From Chondrocystis sp. NIES-4102 (GTDB lineage Bacteria; Cyanobacteriota; Cyanobacteriia; Cyanobacteriales; Xenococcaceae), in contig AP018281.1 of assembly GCA_002368355.1 (NCBI GenBank), forward strand, positions 124,001 through 188,000: DNA of 64,000 nucleotides, read 5' to 3'. The notes under the pieces are model-generated. The model saw only the letters and a program-made list of their open reading frames with translations, was not told the origin of the DNA and did not search any database. Shown one piece after another: positions 16,939 to 56,639 of this stretch. A program made the position numbers and the translations under genes. The number at the start of each line of letters is the position of its first letter. Positions within the stretch are counted from its first letter, which is position 1.

Positions 16939-17706
16939 ATGGGATTATTTGATCGCCTTAGCCGTGTTGTCAGAGCCAATATTAATGATCTAGTCAGCAA
17001 AGCTGAAGATCCAGAAAAGGTATTAGAGCAAGCAGTAATTGATATGCAGGAGGATTTGGTGCAGCTACGTCAAGCTGTTGCCAGAGCGATCGCAACTCAA
17101 AAACGCACTGAACAACAATACAATAAAAATCAGTCTGAAGCCAACACTTGGCAACAAAGAGCGCAGTTAGCCTTATCTAAAGGGGATGAAAATTTAGCTC
17201 GTGAAGCACTAGTACGCAAAAAGTCTTTTAGTGATACTGCTGCTACTCTTAAAGCTCAATTGGATCAACAAGAAGGTAATGTTTCCAGCCTTAAAAGTAA
17301 TCTAATTGCTTTGGAAAGTAAGATTTCTGAGGCAAAAACTAAAAAGGATATGCTGAGAGCCAGAGCCAATGCTGCTAAAGCTCAGGTGCAGTTACAGGAA
17401 TCAATGAATAACATTGGTACTAAAAGTGCTATGGGTGCTTTTGAACGCATGGAGGATAAGGTAGCCGAACTAGAGGCACGATCTCAAAGCGCAACAGAAT
17501 TGGGTGGTGTTGGCATTGAACAACAATTTGCAGCACTAGAAGCTGGTAGTGGGGTTGAGGATGAACTCGCAGCCATGAAAGCTCAGTTATCTGGTACTTC
17601 CGCCCAAACACCAATCTTAGAAGCTGCCGATACTTCCACTAAAACCCCTAAAGATGCAGTAATTGATGCAGAATTAGAGGAATTACGTTCTCAATTGGAT
17701 AAGTAA
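16939..17706 (+). CDS. vipp1: Vipp1 / IM30, PspA-family membrane-remodelling protein
   Basis: Peripheral membrane protein of the ESCRT-III-related PspA/Vipp1 family, needed for thylakoid biogenesis and membrane repair. 255 residues. The amphipathic N-terminal helix MGLFDRLSRVVRANINDLV inserts into membranes, and a long alpha-helical hairpin fills residues 24-190. A C-terminal extension ending DAVIDAELEELRSQLDK, set off by a Ser/Thr-rich linker, is what separates Vipp1 from PspA. It is preceded by about 200 bp of non-repeat DNA after the STRR island, so it has its own promoter. No other psp genes are adjacent. Confidence 0.93.
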   Translation: MGLFDRLSRVVRANINDLVSKAEDPEKVLEQAVIDMQEDLVQLRQAVARAIATQKRTEQQYNKNQSEANTWQQRAQLALSKGDENLAREALVRKKSFSDTAATLKAQLDQQEGNVSSLKSNLIALESKISEAKTKKDMLRARANAAKAQVQLQESMNNIGTKSAMGAFERMEDKVAELEARSQSATELGGVGIEQQFAALEAGSGVEDELAAMKAQLSGTSAQTPILEAADTSTKTPKDAVIDAELEELRSQLDK

Positions 17707-36786: not shown

Positions 36787-37066
36787 TATGTCGCTTTTAG
36801 TTTTTAGCTTCTTAGCTTTTAGCTTTTTATCTTCTTCCCCTTCCTGACTCCTACCTCCTACCCACTACCTACTACCTCCTACCTACTACCTACTACCTAT
36901 TTGCGAAGCTTATCCTTTAGGGCTACCCCCTACCTACTACCTACTACCCCCTACCTACTACCTACTACCTACTACCTACTACCTCCTACCTACTACCTAC
37001 TACCTATTTGCGCAGCTTATCCTTTAGGGCTACCCCCTACCCCCTACCTACTACCCCCTCTAAAAA
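36787..37066. repeat. Large heptanucleotide repeat island
   Basis: Begins TCGCTTTTAGTTTTTAGCTT with AGCTTTT units, then GACTCCT/CTCCTAC, then a long CTACTAC array. Two copies of GCTTATCCTTTAGGGCTACC, each preceded by TTGCGAAG or TTGCGCAG, sit at 36908 and 37015. The array abuts the stop codon of the downstream dynamin-type gene. An open frame through it on the plus strand is only translated repeat. Confidence 0.85.
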
Positions 37067-38823
37067 TTCCTGGTTGTTTGCTGATTTATTTGACTAATAG
37101 TTGTTAAAATTTGCTCAAATTCTTGGCGGATGCTAATTAACTGTCTCATGCTTCTATTAGATAAAGCTATCTCATCTTCATTTTGTTTTCTGGCATTAGC
37201 AATCATTTTTTCTATTTCACCATAGACTTGTTTGTCAAATTCATCAAATTGAATTTCTACTTGATGTTCTAAATCTTTAGCTAGCTTTTGATATTGACTA
37301 TTAATTTGTCCACGGGCATTAGCCATATCCTGTTCTAACTGTCTTGCTTTAGACATTTCATGCAAATCTAAACCCAAAGCACCCACAGCAAAAATTGGAC
37401 CTAGGAATATAGCGAAATTACCAAGATTTTTAGCTATTCCTACGGCTTGCCAAGGTTTGAACTTAAAGCCAATAAATTTGCCCACACCTAAAACAGTTTG
37501 ATGTAGCCCACTACCTACTACATCCATACTTCTTAAAAGACCTGTTGTACTAGCCGTGCTGAGAAAGCTTCTACTAGCGTTTTTTAAAATATTTGCCCCT
37601 GTAGATTCGGCAATTCCCCTTAGCGTGTTAAATTGATTTTTGAGGGTGTCATTATTATTTTCTCTACGAATATGATCCACAGAAGCATCTAAAGATTTTC
37701 CAATGTAAGTAATATAGGTTTGAACTAAATTACCTTCTATGACTCCTTCTACTTGTTGTTTAATATCTCTGAGTGCATTATCAAATATCCCTTGTAATTC
37801 TCGCCCAGCTTTTTCATAATGTTTCTCTACTTTTGAATTGATAGTTTTTTGCGCGTATTCCCATTCATGTTCACTTCTAACATTGCCTACATATTTAGCT
37901 AATTGTGATCCTTCGTCTGCGATCGCACTAGCTAACCTTAAAGCGACACCTTGATTTTGAATTTTAATACGGTTACGTTCATTTTTTATTTGACGAGACA
38001 ATTGATTGAGGATTTCAATAAAGGTTGGATCTGCTTTAGCTATACGAGTAAGTTCAGCTTGTGTATCGTTAACTGCGCTCAAAGCAATACGCACTGGTGT
38101 ATCCAATTTTGCCAAAGATCCACGACGGGCAACAAATTGATTTAATTGCCGAATAAACGTGTCAAAACGACTAATTTCACGCAAAAATTCATCTTTTTGA
38201 TCAACACTATCACAATAGTCCTTAGCATCGACAAAGCAAACAGGAAAGTCATCTAAGGAATAGGGCTTTAAAGCTTCTGCCAAACTATAACGATAATTAA
38301 TTATTTTTTGTTCATCTTCCCCTGCTTCATCGGACATTTTATTAACTAGCAACATCATTTTCCAGGCGTAACCCTTTTCATAAGCTAGCTTTTTAAAGTT
38401 TTTTACTGTTATCGAGTCAAATAACATATAGGTGAGGGAGAAAACCAGTAAGTCAGCTTGATCGATCGCCTGATAAGTAATTGCATCGTGATCAGCGCGA
38501 TCGGTAAATAGCCCTGGAGTATCAATTATTTTAATACCATTCCAGTTGTAACTGGCGGTTTTATCTGTTGATATGTCAGCATCAATTTTAATATCTCTCT
38601 TTCCCGTCAAAGCGGAAATAATTGTTGATTTACCTGCGCTATATTGTCCGACAAAGGCTACACTAATTAATCCTTCTTGTTTATATTTCTGCCAATCTTG
38701 ATTTAGTTTAGTTTTTATTTGATTTAAACTTGGATCATTAGACAGAAAGTTGTTTAAATTATTGCAAGCACTATTAAATTTTTCAGTAATAATAGCAGCA
38801 TTGAATTGTTGATTTTGGTTCAT
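37060..38823 (-). CDS. Bacterial dynamin-like GTPase
   Basis: 587-residue large GTPase of the dynamin superfamily. P-loop GQYSAGKST (59-67), switch II DTPG (101-104) and the G4 region LLVNKMSDEAG (159-169) are intact, as is the conserved threonine region DKTASY. The remainder is mostly helical, with a weakly hydrophobic glycine-rich stretch (about 445-500, GKFIGFKFKPWQAVG.., NFAIFLGPIFAVGALG) that could act as a membrane paddle. Bacterial dynamins remodel or repair membranes. It follows a second, TerB-fused dynamin-type gene by 73 bp, so the two probably work as a pair. Confidence 0.85.
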   Translation of the reverse strand: MNQNQQFNAAIITEKFNSACNNLNNFLSNDPSLNQIKTKLNQDWQKYKQEGLISVAFVGQYSAGKSTIISALTGKRDIKIDADISTDKTASYNWNGIKIIDTPGLFTDRADHDAITYQAIDQADLLVFSLTYMLFDSITVKNFKKLAYEKGYAWKMMLLVNKMSDEAGEDEQKIINYRYSLAEALKPYSLDDFPVCFVDAKDYCDSVDQKDEFLREISRFDTFIRQLNQFVARRGSLAKLDTPVRIALSAVNDTQAELTRIAKADPTFIEILNQLSRQIKNERNRIKIQNQGVALRLASAIADEGSQLAKYVGNVRSEHEWEYAQKTINSKVEKHYEKAGRELQGIFDNALRDIKQQVEGVIEGNLVQTYITYIGKSLDASVDHIRRENNNDTLKNQFNTLRGIAESTGANILKNASRSFLSTASTTGLLRSMDVVGSGLHQTVLGVGKFIGFKFKPWQAVGIAKNLGNFAIFLGPIFAVGALGLDLHEMSKARQLEQDMANARGQINSQYQKLAKDLEHQVEIQFDEFDKQVYGEIEKMIANARKQNEDEIALSNRSMRQLISIRQEFEQILTTISQINQQTTRNF

Positions 38824-38896: not shown

Positions 38897-41401
38897 TTAA
38901 CGTTCAAATGCAATATCTTCTTGAATTACTAGCTTAATTTCTGTCAAAGATTTTTTCAGCTTTATTTCTGTTTTACTCTGAATTATCATCCTTTGTCCAA
39001 AGTTACGCTCAATTTTATTAATTATCTTTTTAACGTTTGCCATAGTTAGAGGTTCATATTGATCTGATGCCCAATCAATTATGCGTTTACCGTACCCATA
39101 ATTGAGATAATTTACTGTTGCATCTAAACTCTTTTGTCCCGCTTCTAACTGATGTGATATATCATCCAAACCTGCAATTAATTGTTGAAAATATTTATCA
39201 ATATTCATTGAATTAGATATACAGAATTGTTCATAATCTCGCAATAATTGTTTAGTAATAGAACGCTTTTGTTGCTCGACTTGATCTTTTAAAGAATTAG
39301 AAATTTTTTCGACTGCTTGACGACGTTTTTTTTCTTTTGAAGTTAACAAATTAGAAATCAAATTTAATCCCGTACCTAATAGACCTACTGCAATACCAAC
39401 AGGAGGAACAACAAAACTTAAACCCAGTCCTAGTGCAGCAATAATTCCCCCTCCAATTTTTAAGAGTTTCTGGTAATCAAAACTATCCTGACTATTTAGG
39501 TTAAAACTATTAAAAGTTAAAGCAGAAACTACCTGCAATTCCCTCCCAACTTCTGCCAGAGATTCTTTAATTTCCTCGTTAAATTTATCGGCTGCTTCTT
39601 TGTTTAATATTTGAATTTTTTTCTCTAATCTTAGAGTTTCTATATTTTGTTTCCAGGCGCGGTTTAAGCTGACTTCATCTGCTGACCAATTATTTTCAGC
39701 AAAGCTAGGAATAGAATTAATAACTTCTTGAAAAATTCCTTGAATTCTATGCTCTAAATAGTTACACCCATCTTTCTGAGCCACCCTAAGATCTTTTTGA
39801 ATCTTTTCTTGCTTAGATTTTAAAGTATTGCTGAATTTCTGATAAGCTTGTTTTTGTTGAGTTATCCATTGAACAGGCTTGATAATTGACCCAACAGTAG
39901 AGCCTAAAAAAGTTTGCGATCGCCTAATTTTTCCATGTTTAATTAATGATTCGCGAATTGAATCAAGAAAGTCTTGAATGCGACTAGCTTTATACAGTTT
40001 ATCTTGATCTTTCTGGTGTTCTATTTCACTTGATAATTGTGCAGCCAACAACATTACAGGCACAATCTCAAAATAATCATTAGTATAATGTTGGTTCGCG
40101 TAACGTTTGATTCTTTCTATATGTCCGCCTATCCCACTATTACCATCTTTAGCAAATAGTTTATTAGGATTTTGTAGAAAATATTGTAAGCGTTTGGAAT
40201 CACGAAGATTATATTTAATATTGAGCAAAATAATTAAGGGTTTTGCTTTTTCTTTCAATAGCTTTAAAAAATTAAATTCTGTCTCTTGAATACTGTCATT
40301 CGTAACCACATAACAAATAACATCCGCTTCATCAATAATACTTTTGGCAATTTCTTCATCATCTTTTCCCATCTCTTCCGCAGCACCAATACCAGGAGTA
40401 TCAATAATCCGAATGTTTTTCCATTCATAGATACGATTAAAGCGAGTTGTGCGCTGTTTTCCTAGTCCGATAGATTCCCACCCATCTTGAGTAATAATTG
40501 AATGGAGAGTACTCTTACCTGCTTTAGTTCTTCCCATAAAAGCGATGGTAAAATAACTCAATGCTCTGTGCTTTGCTTGATGAGATTCTTTAACTTTATC
40601 TAATTCTTGAATAATTTGACTGTCGAGATATTTTATACTTTCCTCTAGTTGATTAGCAACTTCCTTTGCAGTGGTAGCTCTACTATTTTTATTCTCAACT
40701 TTTAACATTACTTCTTTTAAGCTGAGGATTGCAGTTTTTAGCGTTGATTCTGTTTTTTTATAAGCTAATTCTGCATATTGATAATCTTCTTGAGCAACCT
40801 TACAACACTCCTCAATTGCTTGATCATATTCAGGTCCCGATAGTAGAATTTGTCTTTCTAACCGCTCTACTTTTCTGCCAATTATCTCTGGTGCAACTAT
40901 ACTAGCTACATCTATTACAGCCCGAGATAAAGCGGATTTTTGTTCATGCCTAAATAGTTTAGCAGCTAATGACAATTGAGAGCGATCGCTATTACTATTT
41001 TTGTTAACCCCATGCTTTGATCTTTCTACTTTAGTAATCATGCGGTCTATCTCTCTACTTGACCAATTCCAAAGATTAGCCAAACCTTCAAGCATTTCCT
41101 TTTCTGATGATGCTAAATAACCATCTGCATAGGCAATTTCTAAAATTTGTTGCATTACTTCCAAACGATTATTTATTGGAATTAGTTGGGCAACATTCGC
41201 CAAGGTAAGATGATCTTTATCTTGCGTCAAAATCTTATTCATCTCATCTTTAGTCTGCTGGGAGACATTAGGGCGAGTGCTTAATGTATTAAGATATTTA
41301 ATCTCTTGAGAATGAATTTGTTGGTCAGCACAAATAAGATGAACTATTAACAAAAAACTATAATCTATCTGCTCTGATGCAGTGTGGGAATTGTAAAGCA
41401 T
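38897..41401 (-). CDS. Dynamin-like GTPase with N-terminal TerB-like domain
   Basis: About 834 residues from the ATG at 41401; a TTG at 41431 would add ten. Numbering here is from the TTG. Residues 20-135 (YSFLLIVHLICADQQIHSQE, EVMQQILEIAYADGYLASSE) have the paired acidic metal-binding helices typical of TerB-like domains. A helical region is followed by a GTPase with P-loop GRTKAGKST (300-308), DTPGIGAAEEMG (344-355) and LNIKYNLRD in the G4 position. A two-helix hydrophobic hairpin (about 660-700, GGIIAALGLGLSFVVPPVG..) suggests membrane insertion. TerB-type domains occur in stress and phage-defence-linked proteins. Upstream partner of the downstream dynamin gene, 73 bp apart. Confidence 0.8.
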   Translation of the reverse strand: MLYNSHTASEQIDYSFLLIVHLICADQQIHSQEIKYLNTLSTRPNVSQQTKDEMNKILTQDKDHLTLANVAQLIPINNRLEVMQQILEIAYADGYLASSEKEMLEGLANLWNWSSREIDRMITKVERSKHGVNKNSNSDRSQLSLAAKLFRHEQKSALSRAVIDVASIVAPEIIGRKVERLERQILLSGPEYDQAIEECCKVAQEDYQYAELAYKKTESTLKTAILSLKEVMLKVENKNSRATTAKEVANQLEESIKYLDSQIIQELDKVKESHQAKHRALSYFTIAFMGRTKAGKSTLHSIITQDGWESIGLGKQRTTRFNRIYEWKNIRIIDTPGIGAAEEMGKDDEEIAKSIIDEADVICYVVTNDSIQETEFNFLKLLKEKAKPLIILLNIKYNLRDSKRLQYFLQNPNKLFAKDGNSGIGGHIERIKRYANQHYTNDYFEIVPVMLLAAQLSSEIEHQKDQDKLYKASRIQDFLDSIRESLIKHGKIRRSQTFLGSTVGSIIKPVQWITQQKQAYQKFSNTLKSKQEKIQKDLRVAQKDGCNYLEHRIQGIFQEVINSIPSFAENNWSADEVSLNRAWKQNIETLRLEKKIQILNKEAADKFNEEIKESLAEVGRELQVVSALTFNSFNLNSQDSFDYQKLLKIGGGIIAALGLGLSFVVPPVGIAVGLLGTGLNLISNLLTSKEKKRRQAVEKISNSLKDQVEQQKRSITKQLLRDYEQFCISNSMNIDKYFQQLIAGLDDISHQLEAGQKSLDATVNYLNYGYGKRIIDWASDQYEPLTMANVKKIINKIERNFGQRMIIQSKTEIKLKKSLTEIKLVIQEDIAFER

Positions 41402-41858
41402 CGGGATTAAAATATAATTAATTTTCCTCAATTATTATTCCCAATCACTACACTTAATCTGGCAAACGCATCTTACAATTGTGTTTAAACTTGTTAACTG
41501 ATAGCAACAATCATCATTGATTAAGACATTTTTTTACGCCTTAACATCTATTACATGAGATAAACAGCAATTATCTTAACCTTTACTCCTACTGCTATAT
41601 ATCTAACTTGTATTGAATAATTAGCAAAATATCTAAAACTAATATAATTGCTCAAAGATAGACAACTCAAGCCAGAAAGTTAACACCTAAAAAAATATAA
41701 CTCTTCAAATTAACATTATTAACTTAATCTGCTCACCGAACATATTCCCCTTGCTACATACGATCTGTAACAACAAACTCAATTTTGTATTTACGACCAA
41801 TTAAACCTTACTGTAGAGAATAAAAAAGTTTAACAGAATCAATTGTAAAAATTTTTAG
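41402..41858. other. Intergenic, nothing recognised
   Basis: About 430 AT-rich bases between the dynamin-type gene and tRNA-Tyr. They should hold the promoter of the minus-strand GTPase pair. No repeat island, RNA gene or strong hairpin was recognised. Confidence 0.4.
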
Positions 41859-48626: not shown

Positions 48627-49694
48627 ATGACTTCTTTGTTATCCGACTCGCAAAAAATCATGTCAGCTAACCCCATTTTTAATCCTGGTGGGGATGATCG
48701 AGTGGAAAATCGTTCTATTTGGTTCGGTAATACCACCAACTTGATGCAGCTTAATGATGTGCGTTATTCTTGGGCAATTGGTTTATATCAGCAAATGCGA
48801 GAAAACTTTTGGATACCGCAAAAGCTAGATCTAACCCAAGATGTAACTGATTATTGGAATTTAACCACCCAAGAACGTCGGGCATATGATGGTATTTTAA
48901 GTTATCTAACCTTTCTAGATTCTGTTCAAACTTGTAATATTCCTCACATCAAAAGTTGTGTTACTGCGCCAGAAGTTAGCGTGTGCATGGCTGAACAAAT
49001 TTCCCAAGAAGGGATGCACAACCAATCTTACCAATATATAATTGAAACCGTAATTCCTAGCGATCGCCGTAGCAGCGTCTATGATTTTTGGCGTACTGAT
49101 AAAGTACTAGCTGATCGTTGCGAATTTATTGCTTCTATTTATCAGAAATACGTAGATCATCCCACCAAAGAGAATTATTTTGTTTCGTTATTGGCGGACT
49201 ATTTATTAGAAGGAATTTATTTTTATAACGGTTTTATCTACTTTTATAATCTCGCTTCACGGATGCTAATGCCAGGTAGTGCAGATATTTTTAAGATGAT
49301 TAACCGCGATGAACTTTCCCATGTAAGACTTTATCAAAAACTTCTGCCATCGGCTATGCAGATCTTCCCCCATTCAGTGGAACAAATCTATGAGATGGTT
49401 GATACCGCAGTGCAACACGAATGTTGTTGGACGAATCATATTGTCGGCGATAATATTTTGGGCATAACTTCTGATAGTACAGAACATTACACCAAGTATA
49501 TGGCTAATTTGCGTTTAGGGGCGATCGGTTTAGAACCTTTATATAAGGAAGAAAAATATAAGAAAAGTCCTTACAAGCATCTAGAAAGGTTTTCTGACAC
49601 TAAAAAAGATGGTCATACAAAAGCTAACTTTTTTGAAGCTGGAGTAACTAGTTATGTAATGTCTTCTGGTATTAGTGGTTGGGAAGAAATTTAA
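48627..49694 (+). CDS. nrdB: Ribonucleotide reductase class I, small (beta) subunit
   Basis: 355 residues. Generates the radical for reduction of ribonucleotides to deoxyribonucleotides with an alpha subunit that is not in this window. All six metal ligands are identifiable: D98, E128, H131, E195, E229 and H232, and the radical tyrosine Y135 follows in EGMHNQSYQ. The presence of tyrosine rather than phenylalanine argues against the class Ic type. Dinuclear-metal helices LLEGIYFYNGF and NRDELSHVRLYQ are intact. A second ATG at 48660 is an alternative start. Transcribed alone. Confidence 0.93.
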   Translation: MTSLLSDSQKIMSANPIFNPGGDDRVENRSIWFGNTTNLMQLNDVRYSWAIGLYQQMRENFWIPQKLDLTQDVTDYWNLTTQERRAYDGILSYLTFLDSVQTCNIPHIKSCVTAPEVSVCMAEQISQEGMHNQSYQYIIETVIPSDRRSSVYDFWRTDKVLADRCEFIASIYQKYVDHPTKENYFVSLLADYLLEGIYFYNGFIYFYNLASRMLMPGSADIFKMINRDELSHVRLYQKLLPSAMQIFPHSVEQIYEMVDTAVQHECCWTNHIVGDNILGITSDSTEHYTKYMANLRLGAIGLEPLYKEEKYKKSPYKHLERFSDTKKDGHTKANFFEAGVTSYVMSSGISGWEEI

Positions 49695-49851: not shown

Positions 49852-50205
49852 TTATTGTAGATCTTCTAGTTCTTGAAATAGACAATCAAGCTCATTTAAA
49901 ATCATCTCTTTAAGATCAGGAGATTGGGCAGAATTATAATCTGAAATTTGATTTATATCCCCCAATCTTCTTTGAATATAGTTAAAGATATCAAAGATTT
50001 TATCTTGAGTAATTTGATGTGAGGAAGTGATTAAAGCTATTTTTTGTTGAAGATAGAATAAGAATTCTGGGAGATTGTCGAAGGGGTCGGGGTAATTTCG
50101 GGTTGTGACGGGTGTTGAGTTTTGATCACCCAGAAAAAGGCGATCGCGATGACTAAAATTAGGGCGATCGCTAGACCCAATAATATTCTTTTTTTTTGAG
50201 CCTGA
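49852..50205 (-). other. Long open frame without a start codon, overlapping the 3' end of the tail-anchored protein gene
   Basis: On the minus strand, in the -1 frame relative to the gene at 50037-50885, the text is open for about 117 codons from just upstream of a nine-A tract (coding strand; plus 50189-50197) to a TAA at 49852-49854. Its later part reads protein-like: NYPDPFDNLPEFLFYLQQKI, HQITQDKIFDIFNYIQRRLG, DLKEMILNELDCLFQELED. There is no ATG or GTG before this; the only TTG is near the end and would give 37 residues. One extra A in the A9 tract joins the upstream gene exactly to this frame, replacing its membrane anchor. Slippage product, frameshifted old C-terminus or a start-less remnant are the alternatives. 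Confidence 0.5.
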
Positions 50206-50885
50206 TTAGCTGGAGTTTTTACTAAGTTATATTCTTCAAATTCCGTCAATTCTACGCGATTTGATAACCCTCGCCAGACACCAATTTCTTTTAAAGCCGA
50301 ACTTGATTTTATACTAGTTATTAGAATTAGTACTCCTTCTGTTTCTGGTAAAGTAATAGTTTCTAATTCTTGAGCAAGTTCTGTTCTTAAATTTTGACAG
50401 TTATTGCCAATTTTATTAATAGTATATTTAATTTTATTATGATTGATTTGAGTTTGGTTTGATAATTCCCTTAATCTTTCATAGTCTATTTGAAATTCCT
50501 GTTCACCCCCAGGATTAATTAATTGATCAACCTCCCCTTCTATTGTTCCTTCTAAAGCTTTAATGACAATTGATCTAATTTTTTCCTCATTACTTGCAGT
50601 TGCCTTATAAATCCACAGTAAAGAGTTTAAGACCTGACGACCCATAAAATCTGCTCTTTCTTTTCTAGCTTTTAAACCAGTAATAAATAAATAATATTCT
50701 TGATTACTTCTAACTAAAACTAGAGAATACTTTTGTGTATCGATTAAATCATCCAGCTTGATAGCATTACCATTAGCAATTACTACAAAATCTGGCTTTT
50801 CTGGCAAGATCTTATTTTCCAAAACATTAAGCCAACAATAACCATTTTCTTGGGCAATTCCGCGACTTTGGACATAAACCAACAT
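50037..50885 (-). CDS. Tail-anchored protein of the GTPase operon, unknown function
   Basis: 283 residues from the ATG at 50885, which has a strong GGAGG eight bases upstream. A soluble N-terminal domain (YVQSRGIAQENGYCWLNVLE.., DTQKYSLVLVRSNQEYYLFI, ADFMGRQVLNSLLWIYKA) is followed by a helical middle. One hydrophobic helix (about 236-256, ILLGLAIALILVIAIAFFWV) and a short polar tail end it. It has no nucleotide-binding motif. The stop codon of the upstream GTPase gene (TAG) is part of the ribosome-binding site, so the two are translationally coupled. It probably anchors the GTPases to a membrane or senses their state. A nine-A tract precedes the membrane helix. Confidence 0.72.
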   Translation of the reverse strand: MLVYVQSRGIAQENGYCWLNVLENKILPEKPDFVVIANGNAIKLDDLIDTQKYSLVLVRSNQEYYLFITGLKARKERADFMGRQVLNSLLWIYKATASNEEKIRSIVIKALEGTIEGEVDQLINPGGEQEFQIDYERLRELSNQTQINHNKIKYTINKIGNNCQNLRTELAQELETITLPETEGVLILITSIKSSSALKEIGVWRGLSNRVELTEFEEYNLVKTPANQAQKKRILLGLAIALILVIAIAFFWVIKTQHPSQPEITPTPSTISQNSYSIFNKK

Positions 50886-50897
50886 CAACTTATCCTC

Positions 50898-51869
50898 CTA
50901 AATATTCAACCATTTTTCGCCTTTAATCACAGTAAACTGACCATTCGTTTTACACCCTCGCGCAAATTCATCAACGGCTTTTTTTAGATAACTATCTAAT
51001 TCCAACCAATCGCGAACAAAATTAAAAAATAACCATCTTCGATTCTCAAAATGTAACTTTAAAAGAAAGCGCAACAAATAACGCAATGGCTGTTCACTAT
51101 CCACAGGAGAATATTGAGCATCATGACGTGTTTTGCGGAAATAAAAACGAGGATTATTATTGTCAACTTCCATACGGGAAAAAACCACACTCCCAACTGT
51201 TTGCACAGGAGTAATTACACTAGCAATCCAGGGATTTAAATTAGGAGAATTAAAATGATCTATTAACGGTGCATACCCTTGTTTTACTGCTTCTAATAAC
51301 TCTTTCGCTGTGGCACTATTCCTTAAATATTTTTCACATTTAACAGGAGCAAAAATAACCAAACGTGGAGAATCTAAATCCTGATAAGCTGCATTAAATA
51401 AACCCTTAATTTGTTGAGGTCGATTTTTCTTTTCATGAAATTTACCATTCTTTTCCATCAAAGAAGGAGAATCAATTGGAATTAAAACGGCTGTAGATTC
51501 CCTCAATAATTTTTTAACAGCTTCTTTTTCCTCCTTAGATGCTTTAGATTCGTGATATTCACCTGAATAATCGTAAAAACGCAATTGCAAAGAAGGTTTT
51601 GCACCTTTTTCCCCCAACCCAAAACAAAAAGAGCGAACATCCGACGCATTAGTTGGTGTAATACCTACTTCACCCCTAGCCTCAAAGACATCCAGCAAAC
51701 TTTTCAATTCAATTAAACGATCTTGTAAAATTGCTGCACTTTCATCATCGGGGGTTAATTGTAAATTAGTATTACCAATATTACTTTCAAATTGTTCGTA
51801 CATGGCTGTTAAAAGAGTAGTTTTACCTACCCCACTCGCCCCTAACATGGTTATTTTTAATTCTTGCAT
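50898..51869 (-). CDS. P-loop GTPase, TRAFAC/double-GTPase-like
   Basis: 323 residues. Walker A is LGASGVGKTTLLTAMYEQF (P-loop GASGVGKT, about 10-17). The switch II-like acidic motif is LRFYDYSGEYHE, in which D-x-S/A-G-E replaces DxxG, as in the TRAFAC-like 'double GTPase' proteins described in bacterial conflict-system surveys. LIPIDSPSLME follows. A G4 NKxD is not obvious (FAPVKCEKYL may be its equivalent). The C-terminal region is helical and aromatic (FENRRWLFFNFVRDWLELDS). It lies 19 bp after the dynamin-type gene and is coupled to the tail-anchored gene. Confidence 0.7.
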   Translation of the reverse strand: MQELKITMLGASGVGKTTLLTAMYEQFESNIGNTNLQLTPDDESAAILQDRLIELKSLLDVFEARGEVGITPTNASDVRSFCFGLGEKGAKPSLQLRFYDYSGEYHESKASKEEKEAVKKLLRESTAVLIPIDSPSLMEKNGKFHEKKNRPQQIKGLFNAAYQDLDSPRLVIFAPVKCEKYLRNSATAKELLEAVKQGYAPLIDHFNSPNLNPWIASVITPVQTVGSVVFSRMEVDNNNPRFYFRKTRHDAQYSPVDSEQPLRYLLRFLLKLHFENRRWLFFNFVRDWLELDSYLKKAVDEFARGCKTNGQFTVIKGEKWLNI

Positions 51870-51888
51870 CGAGATTTGCGGTTAAAAT

Positions 51889-54087
51889 TTAGAAAAATTG
51901 AAAATTATCTTTTTGGTTGGCTTTAATTGCGCTTTCCACATCCGCCATCCATTGTTGACTTATCCTGCTATTGTGGTCAAACTCCTGAAATTCTTCTACC
52001 CAAACTTGATTGTAGTTTTCTTGTAGGAATTTCAACCATTCTTGTCTAACTTGTTTAGCCCTGAGAATACGATCTAAAAACTCCTCAACGATCGCAAATG
52101 CAGCCTGGTTAGGTTCGGCTAAAAGATCATCCAATGCAGTTTCACATTTATACACAGCTTCCGAATGTAAGGAATTTAAACAGCTTAATACTTCCTGTGC
52201 CGAGGGAGAAGCAGAAAGTTGTAGAGAGGTTTCATCGGGAGTGAGATCATCAAGATGTTGGCGAATACGGTGCTGTATTAAACCACGATAGGAAAGATCG
52301 AATTGTGCTAAGGTTTCAAAACCTAACTTAAGGCGTTTTAAATTATCAGGAATTATTTGAGCGATCGCTCTTATCAAGTCTGCATCCTTAACTGCTGTTA
52401 GATTACCTAATCTACCCTGATCTATCAGTATTTTAGCCACTTGAGTTTTTACTTTATTTATTTCCCCTTTGAGAACATCATCTAGAAGTAGAAAATGTTG
52501 GGATAAATGAGCGCGAACCTCATTGAGATATTGATAATAAGCATTAGGATATCCCCCCTTACTATGACGCAGTTTCTCAATTTCCGACTCTGTGGGAATA
52601 CCATTATCCTCACGACAAGCAGTAACCGCAGCTTCCACCTGTTGCTTAAAGGCTAAATTCTCTAAATCCCTCTCGGCGCGTAATTCCTGTAATAATCCTT
52701 CTAAACCACTGGTTAATTCTAGCCACAGATCCTCAAACAGATCGCTAAATAGGGGAAAGTAATTATGATTTTGAGTAAAACCTTGAAAGACATTACTTGC
52801 TTGCTGTAATTGCGCTGCTACTTGCTGTTGTATGTATAATACTTGCTCCCTGCAAGAAGATATATATTGAATATCTAGTTCGCTAATTTGATTAACCAAA
52901 TAATTTAAAACAGGTTCGAGTAATTGTTGGTTAACTGCTGAAGCATCGGCACAATCAACTTTAATACAGTCAGCAAAATACAAACCTTTTTTTTCGCGAT
53001 CGCTCTCTAAATCTTGACAGTAAATAGAATTATTACCGATGGGAGAATTTATCTGAGTCTGATTAAGCACTAAAAATGACCATTGTTTAAAGGGCAAAAT
53101 AGTTAAAGCTTGACTAGCTGTATCATATAACTGTAAATCCACATCACCCCAATAATCCCTTGGAGGTCTAGGAAGACGTACCATTAACACTATATCCACA
53201 TCCTGCGCCAAGGTTTCAATTAACCGCTTTTCATCTCCTACCCCCGTATCTCCCAATCCAGGCATATCAATTAGAGCGATTTGTCCGACATCAGGATGGG
53301 GAAAAGAACAATAGATTTTCGCCTCTTTAACAGCTAAATAATTATGATAAACTCGTTCACCTGCAAGATTATCTTGAGCCACATATTCTCTAATTTGCCC
53401 CTTATCAATTTTAATTGGGGTTGATTTAGCAAGTAAATGACGATATTGGGGTAAATAATCGCGATATCTTTGCAAATACTCATATTTACCTTCCGCAACT
53501 GCCGTATTAGCCAGATTACTAGGGCGCGCTGGTAGAGGGTAACGGGCAAACTCATCTAAATTACTGGGTACTCTACCTAAACCCAAATCCTGATAATAAG
53601 GGGCGATAACTTCCTGGAGAAAAGAATGTTCTGTATGAAAAGTAATCTCGCCGTAAGTCTCATTTTCAGACTGATGTAAAATTGTACTACGAACTCCAGT
53701 ACAATGTCCGCGATCGCCTGTGGGAATTTCATTACTAGATAATCCTGTCAAACTCTGCAATAAACGGCTTTTCCCTTGTCCTGCACGACCAATTACCCCA
53801 ATATTTATACTATCTCGATTAAAGCGATGTTTGAGGAGATGTAACTTGGCTAATTGAGATTGAATTTGAATCTGTAGTTGTGGAAAATCAAGTTGTTGTA
53901 AATTACTTTGTACTTGAGGATCGGTAATTTTAGTAATTAAATGATTACGACTTATAGCTAAATTATCTAAAAAATTAGCAAGCGATCGCAGATTGTCTTC
54001 CACAGTGGCTATTTTCTCCCTTAAAGGAAGACGTTGAGTAAGAATTTCTTGAATTTTCCTAGTTCTTAAGGTTGTAGCAATTTGCAT
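51889..54087 (-). CDS. Dynamin-superfamily large GTPase
   Basis: 732 residues. An N-terminal helical stretch (1-90) precedes the GTPase domain: P-loop GRAGQGKSR (100-108), a threonine in GHCTGVRS for switch I, and switch II LIDMPGLGDTGVGDEKRL. The G4 equivalent is FLVLNQTQIN. The remainder (400-732) is long helical stalk with no clear membrane hairpin. It resembles bacterial dynamin-like or Roc/GBP-style proteins only in the core. It begins the three-gene operon, 19 bp before the next gene. Membrane remodelling or a stress/defence response are both plausible. Confidence 0.8.
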   Translation of the reverse strand: MQIATTLRTRKIQEILTQRLPLREKIATVEDNLRSLANFLDNLAISRNHLITKITDPQVQSNLQQLDFPQLQIQIQSQLAKLHLLKHRFNRDSINIGVIGRAGQGKSRLLQSLTGLSSNEIPTGDRGHCTGVRSTILHQSENETYGEITFHTEHSFLQEVIAPYYQDLGLGRVPSNLDEFARYPLPARPSNLANTAVAEGKYEYLQRYRDYLPQYRHLLAKSTPIKIDKGQIREYVAQDNLAGERVYHNYLAVKEAKIYCSFPHPDVGQIALIDMPGLGDTGVGDEKRLIETLAQDVDIVLMVRLPRPPRDYWGDVDLQLYDTASQALTILPFKQWSFLVLNQTQINSPIGNNSIYCQDLESDREKKGLYFADCIKVDCADASAVNQQLLEPVLNYLVNQISELDIQYISSCREQVLYIQQQVAAQLQQASNVFQGFTQNHNYFPLFSDLFEDLWLELTSGLEGLLQELRAERDLENLAFKQQVEAAVTACREDNGIPTESEIEKLRHSKGGYPNAYYQYLNEVRAHLSQHFLLLDDVLKGEINKVKTQVAKILIDQGRLGNLTAVKDADLIRAIAQIIPDNLKRLKLGFETLAQFDLSYRGLIQHRIRQHLDDLTPDETSLQLSASPSAQEVLSCLNSLHSEAVYKCETALDDLLAEPNQAAFAIVEEFLDRILRAKQVRQEWLKFLQENYNQVWVEEFQEFDHNSRISQQWMADVESAIKANQKDNFQFF

Positions 54088-54359: not shown

Positions 54360-54560
<201 letters not shown>

Positions 54561-54668: not shown

Positions 54669-56639
54669 ATGGCTGTACTGGAAAAAGGTAACATTACGAT
54701 CCATACCGAGAATATCTTTCCCATCATCAAGAAATCCCTCTACACGGATCACGAAATCTTTTTGCGTGAATTAATATCTAATTCCGTTGATGCTATTTCC
54801 AAATTAAAGATGGCATCTTTAGCAGGGGAAGTACAGGGAGAAATTGCCGAAGCGAAAGTAACCATCGCTCTTGATAAAACTAATAAAACTCTTTCTGTTT
54901 CCGATAATGGTATCGGTATGACAGCAGATGAGGTAAAAAAATATATAAATCAAGTTGCTTTTTCTAGCGCAGAAGATTTTATTAAAAAATATGAGAAAAA
55001 TTCCAATGATTTAATTGGTCATTTTGGTTTAGGTTTCTATTCTGCCTTTATGGTAGCAAGCAAAGTAGAAATTGATACTCTTTCCTATAAAGAGGGTGCA
55101 ACTGCGGTACACTGGTCTTGTGATGGATCACCTGAGTTTGAATTAACCGAGAGCGATCGCAAAACTGTAGGCACTACTATTACTCTCACTCTTCAAGATG
55201 AGGAATTGGAATATGCCGAACCTCAGCGTGTTAAACAGTTGATTAAAACCTACTGTGATTTTATGCCTGTTAAAATTGTTTTGGATAACGAACAAATCAA
55301 TAAACAGGAAGCACTTTGGAAGAAATCCCCACAGGAATTAACCGATCAAGATTACTTAGACTTTTATCGTTATTTGTATCCTTTTCAAGAAGATCCTCTT
55401 TTATGGGTACATCTAAATACTGATTATCCCTTCCTACTCAACGGTATTCTTTATTTCCCCAAACTCAAACCTGATGTAGATTTCTCTAAAGGGCAAATTC
55501 AACTATTCTGTAATCAAGTATTTGTCAGTAAACACTGCGAAGAGATTATTCCCGAATTTTTGATGCCATTACAGGGTGTAATAGATAGCCCTGACATCCC
55601 TCTCAATGTTTCTCGTAGTGCTTTAACTAACGATCGCACTGTACGTCGTATTGCTGATTTTATCTCTAAGAAAATTGGTAATCGTTTAAAATCTCTTTAT
55701 GATGAAGACCGTAGTAAATACATTAGTTCTTGGTCTGATGTTGGTACATTTGTAAAATACGGTGCTATTCGAGACGAGAAATTTAAAAAACAAGTTGAAG
55801 ATTTAATTATCTACCGCACTACCTATCAACCAGATACAACCAATACCGAAGCCACACCCAAAGTAGAAGTTCAATCTGCTGGTGATGATGCTTGGTCTGA
55901 AGTATCTAATAATAATAGCAGTGATTCTACTGAACCATATACCACTTTAAAGGAATATTTAGAACGCAATAAAGAAAAGCAGGAAAATCGTGTATTCTAT
56001 TGCAGTGATCCTGCTACTCAAAATTCTTTTGTGGAACTATATAAGAATCAAGGTTTAGAAGTTCTCTTCCTCGACTCTTTTATTGATACTAACTACTTTA
56101 TTCCTTTTCTAGAGAGAGAATATTCTGAGGTTAAATTTGCCAGGGTTGATTCTGAATTGGATCAAACTTTAGTAGAAGACGATAAAGCACAAGAAATTGT
56201 CGATCCAACTACTAATAAAACTCGCAATGAATTGATTAAAGAATTGTTTGAAAAGGCACTCAATAAACCCAGAGTGAATATTAAAACTCAAGCAATTAAA
56301 TCCGATGATCCACAAGCAACACCACCTGCAATGGTTTTATTACCTGAAGCCATGCGCCGAATGCAGGAAATGGCTGCTTTAATGCAGGAAAGAGCTATGA
56401 CTTTCCCAGAAGATCATGTTTTAATGATTAATACTGCTCACCCTTTAATTCAAAATCTCTTAGATTTGGATAAAACTACCATTATTCAAGGCGGTAATGA
56501 CAGTAATTCTATGGTGAACTTGATGTGTAATCATATTTACGATTTGGCGTTAATGTCTCAAAAAGCTTTTGATGCTGAAGGAATGAAATCTTTTGTTCAA
56601 CGTTCTAATCAGGTATTAACTAATTTGACTAAAAAGTAG
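54669..56639 (+). CDS. htpG: HSP90-family chaperone HtpG
   Basis: 656-residue ATP-dependent chaperone. The N-terminal GHKL ATPase domain shows E34 and N38 in FLRELISNSVDAISKL, DNGIGMTADEV, and GHFGLGFYSAFMVA. The middle domain has the catalytic-loop arginine region GVIDSPDIPLNVSRSALTND. The C-terminal dimerisation domain is present to the end (TAHPLIQNLLDLDK.., LMSQKAFDAEGMKSF). The start ATG at 54669 follows AT-rich DNA with no strong ribosome-binding site. A terminator lies 145 bp past the stop, so it is monocistronic. Known in cyanobacteria to be heat and light-stress induced. Confidence 0.96.
   Translation: MAVLEKGNITIHTENIFPIIKKSLYTDHEIFLRELISNSVDAISKLKMASLAGEVQGEIAEAKVTIALDKTNKTLSVSDNGIGMTADEVKKYINQVAFSSAEDFIKKYEKNSNDLIGHFGLGFYSAFMVASKVEIDTLSYKEGATAVHWSCDGSPEFELTESDRKTVGTTITLTLQDEELEYAEPQRVKQLIKTYCDFMPVKIVLDNEQINKQEALWKKSPQELTDQDYLDFYRYLYPFQEDPLLWVHLNTDYPFLLNGILYFPKLKPDVDFSKGQIQLFCNQVFVSKHCEEIIPEFLMPLQGVIDSPDIPLNVSRSALTNDRTVRRIADFISKKIGNRLKSLYDEDRSKYISSWSDVGTFVKYGAIRDEKFKKQVEDLIIYRTTYQPDTTNTEATPKVEVQSAGDDAWSEVSNNNSSDSTEPYTTLKEYLERNKEKQENRVFYCSDPATQNSFVELYKNQGLEVLFLDSFIDTNYFIPFLEREYSEVKFARVDSELDQTLVEDDKAQEIVDPTTNKTRNELIKELFEKALNKPRVNIKTQAIKSDDPQATPPAMVLLPEAMRRMQEMAALMQERAMTFPEDHVLMINTAHPLIQNLLDLDKTTIIQGGNDSNSMVNLMCNHIYDLALMSQKAFDAEGMKSFVQRSNQVLTNLTKK

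Follow-up and report, generated by a model that had tools for sequence, protein, structure and literature searches.

Why would a bacterial dynamin be encoded together with a small switch GTPase and a membrane protein, and what would such a combination do? This question is raised by a locus of the cyanobacterium Chondrocystis sp. NIES-4102, located in a stretch of 64,000 nucleotides (GCA_002368355.1, contig AP018281.1, positions 124,001 to 188,000; hereafter, the window). Three genes follow one another there on the minus strand: gene A, coding for a dynamin-like large GTPase; gene B, coding for a small GTPase of the DO-GTPase family; and gene C, coding for a single-pass membrane protein with a putative longin-like N-domain. 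The three open reading frames (ORFs) are all present where the initial annotation of this DNA had placed them, the minus strand being a detail absent from it. A, B and C form a real conserved three-gene system, and on balance we lean, by little, towards regarding the trio as a portable membrane-associated GTPase device, in which a membrane-anchored switch controls a dynamin for the purposes of immunity or envelope stress.

Conservation and linkage of the three genes

We searched 194 genomes, drawn evenly from the phylum, and counted matches at E <= 0.001. B was matched in 21 genomes, 19 of them with E <= 6e-48, A in 22 (20 strong) and C in 19. Strong B, strong A and C share the same 19 of the 194 genomes, strong A being found in one more, and in 19/19 trio genomes the genes are adjacent, on one strand and in the order A-B-C. 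Because strong matches of the three co-occur in the same genomes, adjacent and ordered, their association exceeds chance; the hypergeometric probability of B's 19 genomes lying inside A's 20 is 2e-25, a value that ignores phylogeny. C is split by about 1.4 kb in genome G091 (locus L082; such labels are our own), its second piece being a weak match, and in G042 a remote A (32%) stands by itself, with a LysM protein after it.

Named genomes were also scanned, keeping as loci the best 80 of 190 relatives of A, some of them records already in the 194-genome draw. As detected with our own profiles, A-B-C or A-B-B-C is present in 54 of the 66 named loci having at least 3 kb after A. The three-gene order thus recurs in other cyanobacteria, as the initial annotation had proposed to check, and the neighbours, whose unlinking in relatives it had named as a refutation, stay linked. 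The other 12 loci have A only (10) or A and B (two). One clade of A-only copies comprises L114, L123, L128, L131 and L139, with less than 3 kb downstream in L114 and L139, and the Okeania copies near L125 also have A only. Since B and C of Okeania sit at unusual distances, A-only copies likely reflect loss or decay. Tandem variants are found as well, namely A-B-B-C (L154), A-B-C-B-C (L130) and A-B-C-C-C-B (L150, L155).

Those 10 A-only loci would fit the idea that unrelated genes were joined by operon hitch-hiking and nothing else. This idea is very hard to sustain, considering the linkage in 54/66 loci, an A-B-C order that is fixed in several phyla while other neighbours were exchanged, and the correlated divergence of the three genes: their pairwise distances give Spearman coefficients of 0.72, 0.74 and 0.82 (52 loci), with values as high in 0/999 permutations. 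These correlated distances show co-inheritance of A, B and C, not contact.

The spacing of the genes is as tight as had been claimed from the start, with 19 bp between A and B and the TAG stop of B embedded in the TAGGAGG that precedes the ATG of C (282 aa when counted from this codon; an alternative TTG lies one codon upstream). Between A and B, 19 bp are too short to accommodate a promoter, although one may lie inside A. A promoter and terminator scan at the trio returned 16 promoter-like sites against 17.4 in shuffles, which is the chance frequency. Ordinary paralogous GTPases with separate promoters, the other refutation named at the outset, are disfavoured by this short gap and by the different families of A and B, for which their paralogy was rejected. 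Together, linkage, gap and the family of B support the early description of a tightly co-expressed, regulated and membrane-associated GTPase module.

Gene A, a dynamin-like GTPase

The predicted structure of A has a dynamin fold, with the GTPase motifs present, and the nearest Foldseek neighbours are BDLP, SynDLP and IniA, at 11-14% sequence identity in the top rows. By motifs and predicted fold, A belongs to the dynamin superfamily. It resembles the bacterial dynamins (BDLP/NosDLP, SynDLP, IniA and the 5owv dynamin pair) in fold, N-terminal helices, GTPase domain and helical region, but differs in being remote in sequence and in having a switch GTPase and a membrane anchor encoded in its operon. 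Searches of PDB sequences with A and B gave just P-loop, short GTPase or helical matches. PADLOC assigned no family to A at E <= 1, Leo models included, and A was therefore rejected as a Leo protein.

These structural relatives of A are compatible with envelope maintenance, where the trio would act under abiotic stress to repair or reshape the plasma or thylakoid membrane, in the role of an accessory counterpart to the Psp/Vipp1 response and with no part in immunity. This explanation, to which the evidence of the following sections also speaks, is possible, yet we consider it unlikely.

Gene B, a DO-GTPase

Membership of B in the DO-GTPase family (PF19993/PF19975) follows from a profile score over the curated cut-off, as Pfam matches it to DO-GTPase2 with 33.2 bits against a cut-off of 27 (E 5.6e-8), and to DO-GTPase1 with E 1.9e-6. 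DO-GTPase2 is also found at E <= 0.01 in 19/19 sequences of the B alignment, so the link initially drawn to proposed GTPase-centred conflict systems holds for B. The score for MMR_HSR1 (19.3 bits) is below its cut-off of 21.9, and PADLOC gave three weak matches for B, the best with E 0.011. The motif first described as an unusual D-x-S-G-E switch II proved to be an ordinary DxxG, in which D and G are invariant in all 19 sequences and the next residue varies (G in 10, E in seven and D in two, window included). In the fourth motif, which is PVKCE, C and E do not vary among the 19 sequences; the usual NKxD is thus altered in B. DO-GTPases are described by Kaur et al. 2020 (PMC7159879) as having a conserved glutamate in the Walker B motif.

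Judging from profile matches, cyanobacteria have DO-GTPases besides the B of the trio. PF19993 is matched at E <= 0.001 in 26/194 genomes by a scan that scored 14 candidates per genome and missed the window's own B. In the genome of the window, a second DO-GTPase (G000:C1 about 960.5 kb) has a kinase-like gene on one side and an unnamed partner on the other. This different arrangement, in which the protein after the DO-GTPase is unnamed and starts with a conserved Y-G-x-x-Y-x-x-D-F-R, is observed in L199 (8462-10424, G000:C1 about 960.5-962.4 kb), L200, L201 and L202, of which L201 and L202 hold several genes of this second type and L201 lies near an HSP70 gene. Three scanned partners of the second-type DO-GTPase have no Pfam family over cut-off. 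C was rejected as a detectable homologue of this following protein (hhalign probability 0.1), though a D-x-x-x-R element was paired.

Gene C, a putative longin-like membrane protein

A single transmembrane segment is present in the C of the window and in 56/61 C proteins of at least 230 aa. The initial annotation had called C tail-anchored, which stands with respect to the membrane anchor and just loosely with respect to the tail, as about 28 residues follow the segment in the window and 0 to 455 in relatives. Among six long-tailed proteins scanned, two carry WD40 or Ig-like repeats. Peptidoglycan-binding domains occur in 2/49 proteins of the C alignment, which would be in line with envelope maintenance.

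Regarding the N-domain, 17 of the first 21 VIA rows in the structural comparison of C are longin-domain proteins, many of them from homologous complexes and several being presumed members of the longin class; the absence of other folds from this list carries no meaning. When C was tested for the longin sandwich (beta-beta-alpha-beta-beta-beta-alpha-alpha), the fold matches were weak and structural only. These weak but consistent matches suggest that C carries a longin-like N-domain. Sequence searches with the C of the window gave no Pfam family at E <= 0.01, no PADLOC family at E <= 1 and, against PDB, nothing but matches with E >= 0.029. C was also rejected as a recognisable GAP1 protein, because no Pfam family was found on the window copy and no GAP1 model among the matches of the 49 C proteins.

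Table 1. Positions of the trio, its motifs and the Eleos-type genes in the window.
Feature	Position	Strand	Basis
Gene A, dynamin-like large GTPase, 732 aa	51889..54087	-	
GTPase domain of A, residues 94-377 (P-loop GRAGQGKS, CT, DMPG and LN motifs)	52957..53808	-	conserved columns in 56 sequences, motif listing in 20, model strands/helices
A-B intergenic gap, 19 bp	51870..51888	-	sequence
Gene B, small switch GTPase, DO-GTPase family, 323 aa	50898..51869	-	Pfam DO-GTPase2 E 5.6e-8; 19/19 alignment sequences match
P-loop of B, GASGVGKT, residues 10-17	51819..51842	-	alignment of 19
DxxG motif of B, DYSG, residues 100-103	51561..51572	-	D and G invariant 19/19
TAG stop of B within TAGGAGG, ribosome-binding site of C	50894..50900	-	sequence
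Gene C, single-pass membrane protein, 282 aa, putative longin-like N-domain	50037..50885	-	AlphaFold2 pLDDT 90.8; fold matches
Putative longin-like N-domain of C, residues 1-151	50433..50885	-	
Transmembrane segment of C, residues 236-254	50124..50180	-	hydropathy 3.03
Eleos-type LeoA, one of the dynamin-like GTPase pair	window; pair 37060-38823 / 38897-41431	-	PADLOC E 1.8e-119
Eleos-type LeoBC of the same pair	window; pair 37060-38823 / 38897-41431	-	PADLOC E 2.8e-115

Distribution and mobility

The trio looks like a mobile unit, as inferred from its patchy occurrence, from neighbourhoods that change between close relatives and from plasmid copies. Within Xenococcaceae, the family of the window, a B of the trio type is found in 10/27 genomes, and in the genus in 5/13. 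Flanks were compared by blastp (E <= 1e-10) among 11 trio stretches (window, L069, L088, L288-L295), corresponding to 10 genomes, since L088 and L290 are the same record. The flanks of the window have zero genes in common with the nine other family genomes. A run of three flanking genes, including an ABC transporter gene, is common to L088/L290 and L291, the only such pair, while single genes are common to L288, L292 and L294, and another to L289 and L292. A-B-C is the block common to all 11 stretches, with A broken in L289 and truncated at the contig end in L293. Moreover, the tree of A mixes families, e.g., Moorena with Xenococcaceae (FastTree; long branches flagged). The recurrence of the same neighbours in Laspinema and relatives speaks against free mobility. 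An empty insertion site was undefinable, as the two genes flanking the trio in the window lie on different contigs or far apart in 25/25 family relatives with a listed match to both.

As for plasmids, the collection searched contains 10 records matched by A and three matched by B. One Nonomuraea record, in both lists, is 11.8 Mb long and thus chromosome-sized despite its plasmid label. Nostoc carneum plasmid3 carries an intact trio, annotated as hypothetical proteins and adjoined by a TrsK-like gene. In the Streptomyces plasmid copy, A is accompanied by B (profile E 1.5e-26 among 13 proteins) and a third protein of 290 aa; the C-terminus of the latter looks hydrophobic by eye, and the C profile does not match it. 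Diverged DO-GTPases, too, are found as neighbours of related A proteins. On the Stanieria plasmid pSTA7437.02, the genes after A code for a DO-GTPase1-like protein (E 1.6e-5, 24.8 bits, below cut-off) and for a 992-aa protein with no confident family, and an EAD4-NB-ARC gene lies about 2.9 kb upstream of A on the opposite strand. The Nostoc ATCC 53789 plasmid has A opposite two weak relatives of B, with an annotated vWA gene about 6.6 kb off. By eye, ORFs resembling a transposase interrupt the A gene of a Pseudanabaena plasmid (L299 7001-10368).

Beyond cyanobacteria, the firm cases are Actinomycetota: the Pseudonocardia isolates L161 and L162, with a weak match of C, and Nonomuraea L302, with A, B and C by profile. 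Several other phylum labels belong to metagenome bins, which are possibly contaminated. A common presence in viruses was rejected, since none of 44 pattern matches in viral contigs was a relative of A.

Mobility alone could explain the persistence of the block if it were a selfish or plasmid-maintenance element that stabilises plasmids or conjugation. The plasmid records of A and B, the conjugation-type gene beside L085, the TrsK-like gene of Nostoc carneum and the transposases near some trio copies are in agreement with it. We regard it as improbable: a plasmid label is attached to 1/80 named loci (L140), though most are unassigned draft contigs, and the trio comes with no partition or toxin-antitoxin gene. 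The patchiness, shifting neighbourhoods and plasmid copies also argue against plain envelope maintenance.

Accessory domains and flanking genes

Besides the conserved core, effector or sensor components are variable, including the differing tails of C, fusions of A with AAA_35 and HEPN domains and vWA genes; these occur in few loci and none in the window, whose copy of the trio has no AAA_35, HEPN or vWA add-ons. Fusion of A to AAA_35 was seen in L084, L117 and L160, the first two also having HEPN_Swt1 in the fusion, and an AAA_35-like gene stands directly before A in the same three loci. HEPN domains have a role in conflict, and these fusions speak against envelope maintenance. A protein family with AAA_35 and/or vWA follows C in L117, L124, L151, L160 and L164, according to blastp clustering; VWA reaches E 8.6e-8 in L151, and a weaker VWA_2 is found in L086 (E 8.8e-4, below cut-off). 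Extended operons were seen in L117 (6897-16104), L160 (183-8904) and L084 (5450-14537), with an AAA_35-like gene, A with an N-terminal AAA_35 (and HEPN in L084 and L117), B, C and an AAA-type protein, which ends in a vWA-like domain in L117 and L160.

Downstream of C, eight loci (L137, L141, L142, L145, L146, L148, L152 and L163) of a clade with a longer B of about 424 aa have a small unnamed gene (136-243 aa), which is a possible fourth component. L140 has a 152-aa gene in the same place, outside the cluster of this small gene. Directly upstream of the trio, an ABC transporter gene preceded by small membrane proteins was observed in distant lineages (L088 3037-5605, L148 6546-9801).

For the flank scan, 13 near-duplicate loci were left out and 221 candidate ORFs were considered (150-900 aa, the two nearest on each side), of which 150 were kept and the nearest 120 scanned. 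AAA_35 was found in six of these proteins, Uma2 in six and VWA in four, among the 25 of 146 families shown. PspA_IM30 is absent among these 25 families, which were the only place where it was looked for; this also weighs against envelope maintenance. As for PADLOC, 67 families had a match at E <= 1e-10 among the 120 proteins, none of them in more than three, with no control set. Regarding the proximity to defence genes that the initial annotation proposed to check, an Eleos-type pair lies 8.6 kb from the trio in the window (Table 1), whereas the flanks present no clear enrichment of known defence genes, in a comparison with no control. The LeoBC protein of this pair has an N-terminal TerB domain (Pfam E 3.1e-8).

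Around the trio of the window, an htpG-like gene starts at 54669, divergent from it, and a ribonucleotide-reductase-like gene ends at 49694, both named from reading their translations. Short direct repeats, CTCCTGACTCCTGTCTCC-like by eye, lie between A and the htpG-like gene (54410-54550). A PspA/Vipp1-like protein, a membrane-stress factor, was noticed by eye at 16939-17706 on the plus strand, about 32 kb from the trio.

Comparison with known systems

As described by Kaur et al. 2020 (PMC7159879), DO-GTPase systems have GAP1 as a partner and are nearly completely absent in cyanobacteria; the same source describes a design of NTP-dependent conflict systems with vWA and NTPase partners and variable effectors, and 'dynamin' occurs 0 times in its main text. 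The trio is similar to these systems in the Pfam families of B, membrane association, tandem B genes in some loci and variable extra domains, but has a dynamin and a putative longin-like anchor, and the GAP1 partner was not found. GAP1-N2 was matched in 0/98 genomes of the phylum, GAP1-N1 not being searched genome-wide. A GAP1-N2 alignment comprised three sequences.

A possible precedent is the 'HSR1 group' that Jilly et al. 2018 (PMC5827413) named among cyanobacterial dynamins, with a GTP-binding HSR1 protein encoded downstream, for which a regulatory role was suggested. A dynamin followed by a GTP-binding protein is also the arrangement of the A-B pair; however, the section compared contains no third gene, DO-GTPase assignment, mobility or function. 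The P-loop GxxxxGKS/TxL/INALL/I is given there for nearly all dynamins, and the P-loop of A (GRAGQGKSRLLQSL) has no such extended motif. It may be that the HSR1 group already showed the A-B pair, in which case this part of the trio would not be new.

Eleos (LeoA/LeoBC) likewise has dynamin-like GTPases in an operon, but with two dynamin-like proteins in place of a dynamin, a small GTPase and an anchor, and its PADLOC models do not match A. MglA-MglB and the eukaryotic Rab/Rag GTPases have in common with the trio a small GTPase with a probable platform of the longin/roadblock class; they differ in GTPase family, in the membrane anchor of C and in the dynamin of the operon, and C is similar in structure alone, and weakly. 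PADLOC-DB 2.0.0, which covers known anti-phage systems, has no convincing model for A, B or C, and the trio was not found in print in the open-access literature.

Proposed mode of action

In the proposed mechanism, B would be the small molecular switch, of the DO-GTPase family, and C would be held in the membrane by one helix, with its longin-like domain in the cytoplasm and the variable tail outside, according to the expected topology. C may act as a platform for B or as a regulator of its nucleotide cycle, coupling an envelope signal to B. A would be a dynamin-like mechanoenzyme, expected to polymerise on membranes and remodel them, which B, kept at the membrane by C, would license. The outcome could be membrane tethering, repair or deliberate permeabilisation during attack by phages or other elements, or under envelope stress.

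A more drastic outcome would be regulated cell death, in which B, activated through C, frees A to rupture the membrane, so that the infected cell dies (abortive infection), with HEPN, AAA_35 and vWA components setting the threshold. A core with variable parts, NTPase and vWA partners among them, is similar to the design described for NTP-dependent conflict systems (PMC7159879), but dynamins can equally protect membranes and the copy of the window has no add-ons, which leaves cell death rather doubtful. For the device as a membrane-anchored switch of a dynamin, the mobility of the trio and the AAA_35, HEPN and vWA partners of a few relatives tip the preference to conflict over envelope stress, two roles that sequence alone cannot separate.

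Implications for dynamin control in bacteria

To our knowledge, the regulators of bacterial dynamins are largely unknown. Even for the best-studied cyanobacterial dynamin, the in vivo role is called unclear in PMC5827413. Here, a portable unit supplies a dynamin along with what appear to be a switch and a membrane anchor of its own, making control of the dynamin directly testable. More speculatively, and with considerable doubt on our side, the trio could be a bacterial counterpart of the eukaryotic logic of membrane identity, a mobile immune operon uniting a small switch GTPase, a dynamin effector and, as regulator, a longin-type protein anchored in the membrane, where AAA_35, HEPN and vWA would be triggers in some lineages. 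If true, it would be the first bacterial system known to us where control of a dynamin is exerted by a DO-GTPase together with a longin-class protein. The trio would also extend DO-GTPase systems past GAP1 and tie membrane remodelling to them.

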